Source: Dethiobacter sp. (GTDB taxonomy: Bacteria; Bacillota; Dethiobacteria; Dethiobacterales; Dethiobacteraceae). Taken from it: a DNA stretch of 64,000 nucleotides. The position numbers were made by a program, and so were the translations under genes. A model generated the notes under the pieces. That model was not told the origin of the DNA. It saw only the letters and a list, made by a program, of their open reading frames with translations, and ran no database searches. Positions 60,422 through 64,000 of the stretch are shown piece by piece. The stretch spans positions 1 to 64,000 of the forward strand of contig DYEY01000054.1 in the NCBI GenBank assembly GCA_020725465.1. Direction: 5' to 3'. Position 1 is the stretch's first letter, and every line of letters begins with the position of its first letter.

Positions 60422-60739
60422 AAGGCGGTGAACAACCCTTTTAAGGCATAATAGTATTATATATTAATATCAGTTATAGTGATGCTTTTTTTTTATGCCA
60501 TTGAAGCAATAAACGCAACTATTTTAAGGGGTTTACAGGCATGGTGATTTTTATGTATTTATTCCTGGTATCTTTTGGAAAAGGGTTTTAAGATACAATT
60601 ACGAATTATTATTTATAATGTTGTATGTGCTATTTTTTTAAACTGGTTGCCATGAAGAAGGGGGGCGTTTTAAAAATTTTTTTGGAATCAGCATTGTACA
60701 GGTATTAGTCTTTTAGCCTATGATGGGAGTGTGGTAAAA
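60422..60739 (+). other. AT-rich intergenic region before rnfC-like
   Basis: About 320 bases, much richer in A and T than the coding DNA. A TATAAT (60614-60619) is a possible -10 but no good -35 accompanies it. Near 60444-60495 a long-range GGCATAA/TTATGCC pair encloses an AT-rich stretch. No gene, known riboswitch or clear FNR/Crp site was recognised. Confidence 0.5.
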
Positions 60740-62047
60740 GTGACTTCAAAAACATTTAGCCAGGGGGTCTATCTCCCGCACTACAAGAAATTTTCAGAAG
60801 ATAAGTCCATCACCGTAATATCGCTGCCGGAAGAGGTGGTGATTCCTTTGCACCAGCATACGGGAGCGCCCTGCCATGCTGTGGTGAAGGTGGGAGACAC
60901 AGTTAAGACCGGCCAAAAAATCGGCGAGAGCGCAGCTTTTGTCAGCGCTTTTATCCATGCCAGCGCAAACGGAACGGTTAAGGCCATTGAGCCCCGACCC
61001 TACTTTAACGGGCTACTTGTGGAAAGCGTAGTCATTAGCGTTAATCCCGAACAGGAAGAGCCCCGGTGGAATGAAAAGGACGTGACAGAACTTTCACGGG
61101 ATGAAATTAAGGCTGCCATAAAGGAGGCGGGCATAGTAGGTATGGGCGGGGCTGCCTTCCCTACCCATGTAAAACTGAGCCCTCCAAAGCCTATAGATGC
61201 TATTATCATCAACGGCTGTGAATGTGAACCCTTTTTAACCTGTGACCACCGAATGATGGTAGAGATGACTGATTCACTGGTCGAAGGAGCAAAACTTATT
61301 GCCAGGGCGGTTGAAGCACCGCATATTATCTTTGGTGTAGAAGCTAACAAACCGGATGCTATTCAAGCTATTGGCGCAAAGATCGCAGGTGACAGCAACA
61401 TTGAAATAGCTGTCCTGGACGTAAAATATCCACAGGGTTCGGAAAAACAGCTGATTAAAGCTGCAATGAACCTTGAAGTTCCACCTGGAAAACTACCTTT
61501 TGATGTAGGTGTGATTGTGAACAATGTAGCAACCGCCATTGCTGTTTATGAGGCATGCCGATACCAGAAGCCCCTTTATGAAAGGGTATTGACTTTTTCC
61601 GGTGACGGCGCCGCCAAACCAGGCAACGTGAAGGTTCGCATCGGTACCCCTATCAGTCATGTGATTGATCAGTGCGGTGGCCTGCCAAGTCAGGTAGGGA
61701 AAGTAGTGTTGGGTGGTCCCATGACCGGCTGGGCCCAAAGCAGACTGGATGTTCCGGTGGTTAAAGGGACCAGCGGTATATTAATTTTTACATCGTCTAT
61801 GGTTGATGATTACGGACACATGGACTGCGTGCGTTGCGGTAAATGTGTGGAGCACTGCCCCATGTATCTGTATCCCAACTATATCGGCGTGTATGCAGAA
61901 ACGCGCCGCTATCCCATGGCTGTTGAATGGGGAGCCATGGATTGTTTTGAGTGCGGCATTTGTGTGTACGTTTGCCCTTCCAACCGGCCCATTGTCCAGT
62001 TTGTAAGGGATACGAAAAAGCATGTCGCTGCCCGTAGCAGTAAATAA
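60740..62047 (+). CDS. rnfC: RnfC-like electron-transport subunit
   Basis: RnfC takes electrons from NADH by an FMN/NADH-binding SLBB-type module and passes them through two [4Fe-4S] clusters. The 435-residue protein has GIVGMGGAAFPTHVKL (nucleotide-binding region), NGCECEPFL, and the ferredoxin motifs CVRCGKCVEHCP and CFECGICVYVCP. GTG 60740 has GGGAG ten bases upstream; GTG 60731 is too close to it. It is followed by an rnfD-like gene, but rnfG, rnfE, rnfA and rnfB are not present, unlike a full Rnf operon. Confidence 0.88.
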   Translation: MTSKTFSQGVYLPHYKKFSEDKSITVISLPEEVVIPLHQHTGAPCHAVVKVGDTVKTGQKIGESAAFVSAFIHASANGTVKAIEPRPYFNGLLVESVVISVNPEQEEPRWNEKDVTELSRDEIKAAIKEAGIVGMGGAAFPTHVKLSPPKPIDAIIINGCECEPFLTCDHRMMVEMTDSLVEGAKLIARAVEAPHIIFGVEANKPDAIQAIGAKIAGDSNIEIAVLDVKYPQGSEKQLIKAAMNLEVPPGKLPFDVGVIVNNVATAIAVYEACRYQKPLYERVLTFSGDGAAKPGNVKVRIGTPISHVIDQCGGLPSQVGKVVLGGPMTGWAQSRLDVPVVKGTSGILIFTSSMVDDYGHMDCVRCGKCVEHCPMYLYPNYIGVYAETRRYPMAVEWGAMDCFECGICVYVCPSNRPIVQFVRDTKKHVAARSSK

Positions 62048-62080
62048 TTTTACCCCTGATTACTACAAGGAGGGATACCA

Positions 62081-63106
62081 TTGAGTATGAGCAGTGAGTT
62101 AAATTTGAGCGTATCCACCTCTCCGCACCTGCGCAGTAAAGAGAACGTTCCCAATGCGATGAGAGATGTGGCTGTTTCATTATTGCCAGTTAGCGCAGTT
62201 TCAATCTACTGGTTCGGACTGAATGCCCTGTTCTTGATAGTCCTCTGCATGGCTACAGCGTTGCTGACCGAAGTTGTTTTCAGGAAAATGCTAAACCGCC
62301 GCTCTAAACGTTTTGACGGCAGCTCTCTTGTCACCGGCCTGTTAATAGCCCTCTGTTTCACTGTCAATACCTCCTGGTGGACTGCAGTTATCGCCACAGT
62401 TATAGGAGTGGGTATAGCCAAGGAGCTGATGGGTGGTATAGGCTGGAACCTTTTTAATCCGGCCCTTTTTGGCAGAGTATCCGTGGTTATTTTTGCTCCT
62501 CTCCTTTTGAACGAGGTAAACATCGCCTTCAAGCCACTGGGCTTCAGTCTCAGTACCGTGGATGTGGTCACGCAGGCAACTCCGCTGGCGCTGCTAAAAT
62601 ATGGCAGCGGACTCCCTTCTCTGAGCTCACTTTTCCTGTCTTTCCCCGGAGGGGCTTTAGGTGAAACCTCAGCTCTTGCCCTGATTGCCGGCGGCGCATA
62701 CCTGATTTATCGGAAGCATATCCGCTGGCAGACGCCAGTTTCAATTATTGCCACTGTTTTTGTTATAGCCCTGTTGCTTGACAGCGGCCGGTTGGGCATT
62801 GCTGCACCGCTATATCACATCTTTAGTGGTGGGGTACTGTTAGGCGCCATTTTCATGGCTACAGATTGGGTCACATCTCCTATCACAACCAAGGGTAAAA
62901 TCATATTCGGTGTATCTGTGGGCATCCTGATTATGGTTTTCCGTCTCTTCCTTGCCCCCGTTGAAGGGACAGCATTCTCCATCCTGATTATGAACGCTTT
63001 TGTCCCGTACATTGACCGGGCAACAAAGCGTCCCCGTTTTGGTGAAGTTGCAGCCACGGCAAAGATGGCTCCCGGTGTCAGTCAGCCGGTTCAGAGGAGT
63101 GTTTAG
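62081..63106 (+). CDS. rnfD: RnfD-like membrane subunit
   Basis: RnfD is a membrane subunit carrying covalent FMN. The 341-residue protein has about nine membrane helices, a GIGWNLFNPALFGRVS segment, and VVTQATPLALL where the family has the S/T-G-A-T flavinylation motif; the acceptor Thr is kept but Gly is replaced by Gln. DWVTSPIT is conserved near the end. TTG 62081 follows AGGAGGG by six bases. It continues the rnfC unit and leads into the TorD-like gene. Confidence 0.86.
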   Translation: MSMSSELNLSVSTSPHLRSKENVPNAMRDVAVSLLPVSAVSIYWFGLNALFLIVLCMATALLTEVVFRKMLNRRSKRFDGSSLVTGLLIALCFTVNTSWWTAVIATVIGVGIAKELMGGIGWNLFNPALFGRVSVVIFAPLLLNEVNIAFKPLGFSLSTVDVVTQATPLALLKYGSGLPSLSSLFLSFPGGALGETSALALIAGGAYLIYRKHIRWQTPVSIIATVFVIALLLDSGRLGIAAPLYHIFSGGVLLGAIFMATDWVTSPITTKGKIIFGVSVGILIMVFRLFLAPVEGTAFSILIMNAFVPYIDRATKRPRFGEVAATAKMAPGVSQPVQRSV

Positions 63107-63202
63107 GTTATCAAAACAAAAAAAGATAGTTTGAGAAACGCGCAACTCAAAACAAGTTGGAGGGATTTAAATCTCAGAAACTACCGAAGGGAGCGGTCAG
63201 AA

Positions 63203-63817
63203 ATGTTCCGTGCCTGCCAATACGACGTACTCTCCCGGTTGTTCTCTGACCAGAGCGACAGCAAAGATATTGAGGCTTACCTGGGATATCTTGCACCGCC
63301 GTCCAGCGAACATGACAGCGCAGCTGCGGCTTTTTCCCGCCAGCTCAGGCTGTGGCTAAATTCAAAAGAGCCTGATCACCTTTTGCGCACCGAGTACGCC
63401 AGGCTGTTTATAATGCCAGGAGGAATCCGTCCCTACGAATCGGTTTATCGCGGCAAAGTCCCGTTGCTTATGCAAGAACCATGGTTAGAGGCAAAGCAAT
63501 TCTACCGGAGGTGTGGCCTGAAGCTGGAAAATCCGTCACGACATCCGGAAGATCATATTTCATCAGAATTGGCGTTCATGCTCTACCTGATCGAGATGGG
63601 TAACCGGAAAGCAGAAGAAAAAGCCTTTTTCAGACAGCACATTGACTGCTGGGTGCCACAGATGCTGGAAGATATTAAAAAGCACACTCATGCCCATTTT
63701 TTCAAAGATGTAGCAAATTTCGGCCGCGCATTTCTGGAAAGCGAGCGTGAATATTTAAGCGGTGATAACAAAGATACGTTATTCCCGCCAGCACAATTAC
63801 AGGGGAGTGATAAATAA
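63203..63817 (+). CDS. TorD/DmsD-family molybdoenzyme chaperone
   Basis: A 204-residue all-helical protein of the TorD group, which holds apo-molybdoenzymes and their Tat signal until cofactor insertion. The EYARLFIMPGG...PYESVY and HPEDHISSELAFM segments are the family signatures. ATG 63203 follows AAGGGAG by nine bases; the open frame extends 24 codons further without a site. The Tat-signal oxidoreductase directly downstream is the expected client. Confidence 0.85.
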   Translation: MFRACQYDVLSRLFSDQSDSKDIEAYLGYLAPPSSEHDSAAAAFSRQLRLWLNSKEPDHLLRTEYARLFIMPGGIRPYESVYRGKVPLLMQEPWLEAKQFYRRCGLKLENPSRHPEDHISSELAFMLYLIEMGNRKAEEKAFFRQHIDCWVPQMLEDIKKHTHAHFFKDVANFGRAFLESEREYLSGDNKDTLFPPAQLQGSDK

Positions 63818-63818
63818 A

Positions 63819-64000
63819 ATGAAGGCAGAAAAATTTAAAATTAAACGCCGCACTTTTATGAAACTGGCACTGGGAACCGGCGCTGCTTTAAGCACCGGCC
63901 TGTCAGTTCCCAGGTTTGTGGAGGCTACTGATGAAATAGTTGAAGACTCTGAGAGGGAGGTTTTTACCTACTGCGCGGTTTGCAGCGGCGGATGCTCCAT
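63819..64000 (+). CDS. Tat-exported molybdopterin oxidoreductase, N-terminus (cut by window)
   Basis: The first 60 residues are visible. A twin-arginine signal (KRRTFMKLALGTGAALSTG) is followed by a Cys motif CAVCSGGCS, the start of the [4Fe-4S] domain of DMSO-reductase-family enzymes (C-x2-C-x3-C). ATG 63819 is one base after the TorD-like stop codon. The substrate (for example polysulfide, thiosulfate, arsenate or other) cannot be told from this part. Confidence 0.8.
   Translation, partial: MKAEKFKIKRRTFMKLALGTGAALSTGLSVPRFVEATDEIVEDSEREVFTYCAVCSGGCS

Follow-up and report, generated by a model that had tools for sequence, protein, structure and literature searches.

The DNA analyzed here (the window) comprises bases 1 to 64,000 of the 99,163-bp contig DYEY01000054.1 (C44) of a Dethiobacter sp. 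genome (assembly GCA_020725465.1; 2.91 Mb, 98% complete). At its right-hand end lie genes for two subunits of the Rnf complex, RnfC and RnfD, which are followed by genes for an exported molybdenum (Mo) enzyme of the twin-arginine translocation (Tat) type, its chaperone and, beyond the window, its iron-sulfur (Fe-S) subunit. The features are listed in window coordinates unless the contig is named.

60731..62047, + strand: rnfC, cytoplasmic subunit with NADH/flavin mononucleotide (FMN) and two [4Fe-4S] sites, of the split-off branch described below (TIGR01945, 508.6 bits at a cut-off of 246; Pfam Complex1_51K, RnfC_N and SLBB)
61826..61978, + strand: codons for both [4Fe-4S] cysteine motifs of RnfC (amino acids 366–416)
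62081..63106, + strand: rnfD, membrane subunit with the covalent-FMN threonine (TIGR01946, 282 bits at a cut-off of 207; Pfam NQR2_RnfD_RnfE)
62561..62581, + strand: flavinylation motif of RnfD, D161-V-V-T-Q165-A-T167 (alignment with 9eri_D and 7zc6_D)
63131..63817, + strand: torD-type maturation chaperone for a Mo enzyme (Pfam Nitrate_red_del, 86 bits; NCBIfam TorD, the best match, and DmsD below cut-off)
63819..64000, + strand, cut by the window end and continuing to C44:66158: Tat-exported PhsA/PsrA-like molybdoenzyme of 779 amino acids (matches to PsrA and PhsA; Tat signal KIKRRTFMKLALG)
C44:66190-66927, outside the window: FdnH-like Fe-S beta subunit (matches to FdnH and PsrB)

The five genes look like one operon, since the gaps between them are only 33, 24, 1 and 31 bp in the order rnfC-rnfD-torD-Mo-FeS. 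The rnfD gene starts with TTG and is preceded by AAGGAGG; scans for promoter and terminator consensus sequences gave no signal above shuffled sequence. The original prediction was of an RnfC/RnfD pair that lacks rnfG, rnfE, rnfA and rnfB and runs straight into a TorD chaperone and a Tat molybdoenzyme, and both the family scores and the sequence past position 64,000 bear it out. When the contig was read for 20 kb past the window, the Mo enzyme was completed, the Fe-S subunit was found, and the operon ended there, followed by an FtsH-like gene on the opposite strand. The remainder of Rnf therefore does not lie just beyond the window: neither the window operon nor its Mo and Fe-S extension contains rnfG, rnfE, rnfA, rnfB, cytochrome b or NrfD genes. 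The Mo enzyme likewise has no membrane quinol-oxidizing subunit of its own in the operon, and NrfD is missing from the whole genome.

RnfC matched Clostridium tetanomorphum RnfC (7zc6_C) with 410 bits and retains the glycine-rich NADH/FMN motif (GIVGMGGAAFPTHVKL, amino acids 134–149) together with the two CxxCxxCxxxCP motifs for [4Fe-4S] clusters. RnfD consists of the NQR2_RnfD_RnfE domain only, and the best Foldseek matches to its predicted fold were 9eri_D and 7zc6_D, followed by NqrB. The flavin-binding threonine (T167 in DxxTxAT) is kept, with Thr in 43 and Ser in 2 of the 45 aligned rows of the split-off branch, so that covalent FMN is predicted from the motif. Two positions before it (165 in the window RnfD), Gln was found in 34 of the 45 branch rows but in none of the 56 canonical ones, which have Gly, Thr, Ala, Ser or Met (Thr in the solved clostridial RnfD). 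The initial reading of this motif, Thr retained and Gln in place of the motif Gly, was right about both residues, and the substitution is real. Since the site varies among canonical RnfD proteins and Gln is typical of the branch, degeneration of the motif was ruled out. Glu115 is invariant in the branch (45/45), absent from canonical rows and aligned with a Glu in NqrB; its identity with the known Na+ residue of NqrB found no support in the numbering and is not claimed. Many positions fixed in canonical RnfD have been lost in the branch, for example, S138, G187, T284, G291 and P294.

The Mo subunit was nearest to PsrA (2vpw_A, 308 bits; ArrA, 200 bits) and is a predicted Tat-exported member of the dimethyl sulfoxide reductase superfamily. 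The PhsA equivalog model gave 387 bits, below its cut-off of 694, identity to the listed annotated PhsA proteins was 28–29%, and all plasmid matches were below 60%, so homology does not fix the substrate; from the sequence, the chances that it is a sulfur compound appear about even. The Fe-S subunit has 17 cysteines (FdnH, 134 bits; PsrB, 115 bits) and belongs to the four-cluster beta type. It aligns with FdnH (1kqf_B) through the C-terminal helix, and the PsrB match ends before that helix; an FdnH-like tail is consistent with attachment of the beta subunit to a partner in the membrane. The gamma subunit that links complex iron-sulfur molybdoenzymes to quinones, NrfD or cytochrome b, is not encoded in the operon.

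Gene neighborhoods were read at the RnfD matches of 60 related genomes and at the 80 top-ranking loci from a named genome collection (loci are numbered with L, genomes with G and contigs with C; G000 is the window genome). The RnfD matches in the relatives fell into two groups, one with 51–63% identity (26 relatives) and the other below 49%. The former is the branch-type RnfD, whose loci pair rnfC-rnfD with exported enzymes or at least their Fe-S subunit, as described below. The latter comprised mostly full Rnf operons, a few orphan RnfD-like genes and remoter members of the split-off branch from Actinomycetota. Three of the orphans (L071, L072 and L074; 42–44% identity to canonical RnfD) had no recognized Rnf, Mo or Fe-S neighbor. 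In the tree of 55 RnfD proteins, canonical RnfD lay on one side of a branch with support of 100/99 that was present in 100% of bootstrap trees, and a quick 69-row tree agreed. Canonical RnfC was likewise set apart in the RnfC tree (support 99), except for one long NQR-like row. Members of the split-off branch were found in Bacillota, in a Dehalococcoidia metagenome-assembled genome (MAG) of Chloroflexota and in Actinomycetota (Geothermincolaceae); across the phylum, a close match was present in 7 of 299 sampled genomes, including the one analyzed here.

Linkage to exported enzymes, as seen in the window, is found again across three phyla, with the genes in three different orders. The assembled neighborhoods of the branch contain an exported formate dehydrogenase (FDH), which is the commonest partner, a PhsA-like Mo enzyme, a Tat [NiFe] hydrogenase (one genome), or at least their Fe-S subunit. 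Same-strand runs include rnfC-rnfD-fdhA-fdhB, fdhE-fdhA-fdhB-rnfC-rnfD, torD-Mo-FeS-rnfC-rnfD and the window type, rnfC-rnfD-torD-Mo-FeS, and in one locus (L191) rnfD stands ahead of rnfC; the association has therefore outlasted rearrangement. RnfG, RnfE, RnfA and RnfB were absent from all branch loci linked to FDH, PhsA-like enzymes or hydrogenase, and no further candidate electron-carrying membrane subunit was found in any FDH- or PhsA-type-linked run. The Fe-S subunits of branch loci mostly have 16–18 cysteines and an FdnH-like C-terminal hydrophobic helix.

In four genomes, rnfC-rnfD-FeS stands alone, and elsewhere in each of them lies a single matching FDH catalytic gene that has no beta or gamma gene beside it and adjoins fdhE where the contig reaches. 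Were the pair and the enzymes unrelated, such complementarity would be difficult to account for. The only hydrogenase-linked case seen was L043:5658-10440 (G046:C80), where RnfC-RnfD-FeS genes run into those for the small and large subunits of a Tat [NiFe] hydrogenase and its maturation proteins; that genome has no matching FDH of this family. In a Syntrophomonadaceae MAG (L076), rnfC-rnfD-torD-PhsA-like-FeS is followed by fdhE-fdhA in one locus, so that both enzymes may depend on the same RnfC-RnfD pair there. At L094:6875-9958 and L190:9991-13014, a protein of 1007–1027 amino acids with 32 cysteines and 26% identity to RnfC takes the place of RnfC beside a diverged RnfD and a PhsA-like enzyme. 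The sole exceptions among complete neighborhoods were two remote branch members located beside a UbiA prenyltransferase gene (L068:7809-11828 and L120:6974-12023), with a polyprenyl synthase in L120 and an RnfG-like FMN_bind gene in L068, a context suggesting a quinone-related use of RnfC-RnfD.

The Dethiobacter genome holds three RnfC genes. One belongs to a complete rnfCDGEAB operon on contig C69, whose RnfG (G000:C69:26937-27758; L008:8937-9758) has two tandem FMN_bind domains (LAGATVST and SGATGSS). Another lies on C9 in the order fdhE-rnfC-rnfD-fdhA-fdhB-tatC, where fdhA encodes an exported FDH with an in-frame TGA read as selenocysteine. With the C44 locus, the genome thus has, besides the full Rnf, two RnfC-RnfD pairs whose exported Mo enzymes differ. 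One ApbE flavin transferase is encoded. Away from Rnf genes lie those for three small FMN_bind proteins, each a single domain with one predicted helix (G000:C55:260-457, C4:20057-20245 and C47:15662-15844). No match to futalosine-type MqnA/D and no MenB above cut-off were detected in the genome, which suggests a possible loss of menaquinone. Despite the lack of any such marker, a [NiFe] uptake hydrogenase resembling group 1 is encoded, together with a cytochrome b of its own that is the sole b561-type one of the genome, 11–14 kb downstream of the window operon (G000:C44:77886-81070; L159). Two UbiA proteins are also present.

Gene content, recurrence, the separate branch and the retained cofactor motifs are the observations on which we base the interpretation that RnfC-RnfD is probably an NAD(H)-linked transmembrane conduit, which serves the exported Mo enzyme via a membrane-anchored Fe-S subunit and replaces the quinone-linked gamma subunit (FdnI, PhsC/NrfD or HyaC type). 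In solved structures of Rnf and of the Na+-translocating NADH:quinone oxidoreductase (NQR), the NqrB/RnfD flavin lies toward the outer face, and electrons return via RnfD and RnfC to the cytoplasm. The conduit would use this return leg alone, with the Fe-S subunit of the exported enzyme in the place of RnfG. Electrons would move, in either direction, between NADH, the FMN and [4Fe-4S] clusters of the cytoplasmic RnfC, the flavins of the membrane-embedded RnfD (including the FMN bound covalently to Thr167, close to the outer face), the Fe-S subunit and the Mo site outside; we infer that RnfD and the Fe-S subunit are in direct contact. The conduit is not a partial Rnf, for it contains neither RnfB (the ferredoxin module) nor RnfA/E (the [2Fe-2S] module) nor RnfG.

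The transfer would be charge-separating because electrons cross the membrane without ions, the absence of ion pumping being part of the same interpretation. Standard potentials are about -430 mV for CO2/formate, -414 mV for H+/H2 and -320 mV for NAD+. Formate or H2 and NAD+ are therefore about 100 mV apart, which is similar to a modest membrane potential, and the conduit would thus be reversible. Energy would be stored by inward flow, when formate or H2 gives electrons to NAD+; outward flow of NADH electrons to CO2, protons or an oxidized substrate would be driven by the membrane potential. For comparison, Salmonella PhsABC performs thiosulfate reduction driven by the proton motive force, with menaquinol. 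At the window locus, NADH electrons most likely flow outward, to an acceptor of the sulfur type or a similar one, because the partner is a PhsA/PsrA-like reductase. The core of the earlier proposal, electron transfer from RnfC through flavinylated RnfD to an outer enzyme that standard Rnf does not explain, is well supported by the separate branch, the recurrent linkage and the lack of another membrane subunit; the idea of a reductase chain that runs one way and is confined to this locus is not, since the commonest partner is FDH, for which either direction is plausible. It is an evenly balanced question whether, more broadly, RnfC-RnfD conduits form a distinct class that separated from Rnf a single time and later came to serve at least three kinds of exported enzymes (FDH, PhsA-like reductase and [NiFe] hydrogenase). 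Such conduits would be charge-separating, quinone-free and near equilibrium, letting the membrane potential drive NADH electrons onto CO2 or protons outside or storing energy from the oxidation of formate or hydrogen.

Several observations weigh against this interpretation. Full Rnf is also present in the window genome and in nearly all relatives (RnfA/E in 58 of 60), and, judged on gene content alone, the pair could still borrow RnfG, RnfE, RnfA and RnfB from it. Two Actinomycetota loci of the Geothermincolaceae (L091 and L092) have RnfC-RnfD and a Mo enzyme without an Fe-S gene in the operon, the Fe-S subunits of L088 and L089 have no tail helix, and the cytochrome-b-linked hydrogenase and the two UbiA proteins may indicate a quinone made by some other route. 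Genomes with RnfC-RnfD and no apparent full Rnf did not provide proof of independence: G005 and G010 show short RnfA/E fragments (one at a contig end), and so a full operon may lie in their assembly gaps. Since nearly all relatives also hold full Rnf, the independence of RnfC-RnfD rests on linkage, branch separation and complementarity. These same points make it improbable that RnfC and RnfD are spare paralogues, which assemble with RnfG, RnfE, RnfA and RnfB from the complete operon on the other contig and have the Mo enzyme as a mere neighbor. The complete operon and the frequency of RnfA/E in relatives would allow this, but the same kinds of exported enzymes are linked across three phyla and three gene orders, both proteins branch off from their canonical counterparts, and RnfD has lost canonically fixed positions.

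A little less improbable, although still unlikely, is an ion-pumping RnfC-RnfD, in which electrons passing between NAD(H) and the outer enzyme would power the transport of Na+ or H+ through RnfD. RnfD and NqrB are parts of ion-translocating complexes, and Glu115, specific to the branch and aligned with a NqrB Glu, would suit such a role. The lack of RnfA/E argues against it, as the coupling of redox changes with the movement of ions in Rnf and NQR is attributed to this [2Fe-2S] pair. The weakest of the alternatives, and equally doubtful, are a separate flavin carrier and a quinone pool. A small FMN_bind protein or the RnfG of the full complex could shuttle electrons between RnfD and the Fe-S subunit, given the three small FMN_bind proteins encoded besides RnfG and the RnfG-like gene adjoining rnfC-rnfD in L068; but none of the three genes is near the clusters, by which they were rejected as RnfG substitutes, no FMN_bind gene occurs in any FDH- or PhsA-linked operon, and the Fe-S subunit has a membrane helix of its own. 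As for quinone reduced by RnfC-RnfD and serving the Mo enzyme, NqrA and NqrB, relatives of RnfC and RnfD, reduce ubiquinone, and the loci L068 and L120 adjoin UbiA and, in L120, polyprenyl synthase genes. Against this, the Mo enzymes have no quinol-oxidizing subunit, and the window genome has no NrfD, no MqnA/D match and no MenB above cut-off.

It has long been asked how NADH electrons travel uphill to formate or hydrogen outside the cell in syntrophic and alkaliphilic anaerobes. Exported FDHs in such organisms have been reported without an identified membrane partner (PMC10608574, PMC6295475), including the FDH of an acetate oxidizer whose beta subunit has a C-terminal helix (PMC10608574). 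A two-subunit module with a sequence signature is a concrete candidate for this partner. If the proposal is true, anaerobes gain a link between NADH inside and formate, sulfur-type or hydrogen enzymes on the outer face, Rnf is modular, with a return leg reusable alone as a wire, and genomes annotated with truncated Rnf (PMC5080403, PMC6295475) may need re-reading. In the open-access literature (subscription journals lay outside the search), no paper was found that describes an RnfC-RnfD module as such or Geothermincolaceae with such systems, and two surveys of flavinylated electron transfer mention neither RnfC nor Mo enzymes.

The closest precedent is the syntrophic acetate oxidizer unFirm_1, a Firmicute described from a metagenome in 2016, which has only RnfC and RnfD beside an FDH; both RnfC and that FDH were identified by metaproteomics (PMC5080403). 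It resembles the system described here in this adjacency, but the paper covers a single incomplete genome and reads the genes as an ion-pumping Rnf in truncated form, without a branch, an Fe-S or chaperone logic, or Mo-reductase and hydrogenase variants. In a haloalkaline acetate oxidizer, the reported Rnf genes are limited to C, D and two of G (PMC6295475). The RnfC2 of the Acetobacterium woodii methylene-tetrahydrofolate reductase, as cited in PMC6895022, is also an NADH module outside Rnf; unlike the window module, it is soluble, with no RnfD and no exported enzyme. In the two-gene NQR/RNF-like systems (PMC8238504, PMC11334425), a membrane protein of the NqrB/RnfD type has likewise been proposed as a one-way outward route for NAD(P)H electrons; these systems combine a fused NqrF-type NAD domain with an FMN-bind partner and are without the flavin Thr, whereas the window module has a separate RnfC, retains the Thr and has no FMN-bind gene in its operon, which places it outside that group. 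With the Rnf complex (RnfABCDGE) of A. woodii and C. tetanomorphum, it shares RnfC and RnfD and their NADH/FMN, [4Fe-4S] and flavin-Thr motifs, but it lacks RnfB, RnfA, RnfE and RnfG, its RnfC and RnfD form their own branch, and its partner is an exported Mo or Ni enzyme. With FdnGHI, PhsABC and PsrABC, it has in common the Tat-exported Mo subunit, the four-cluster Fe-S subunit (with the C-terminal helix of FdnH) and a TorD or FdhE chaperone, while RnfC-RnfD stands in the place of their cytochrome b or NrfD gamma subunit.

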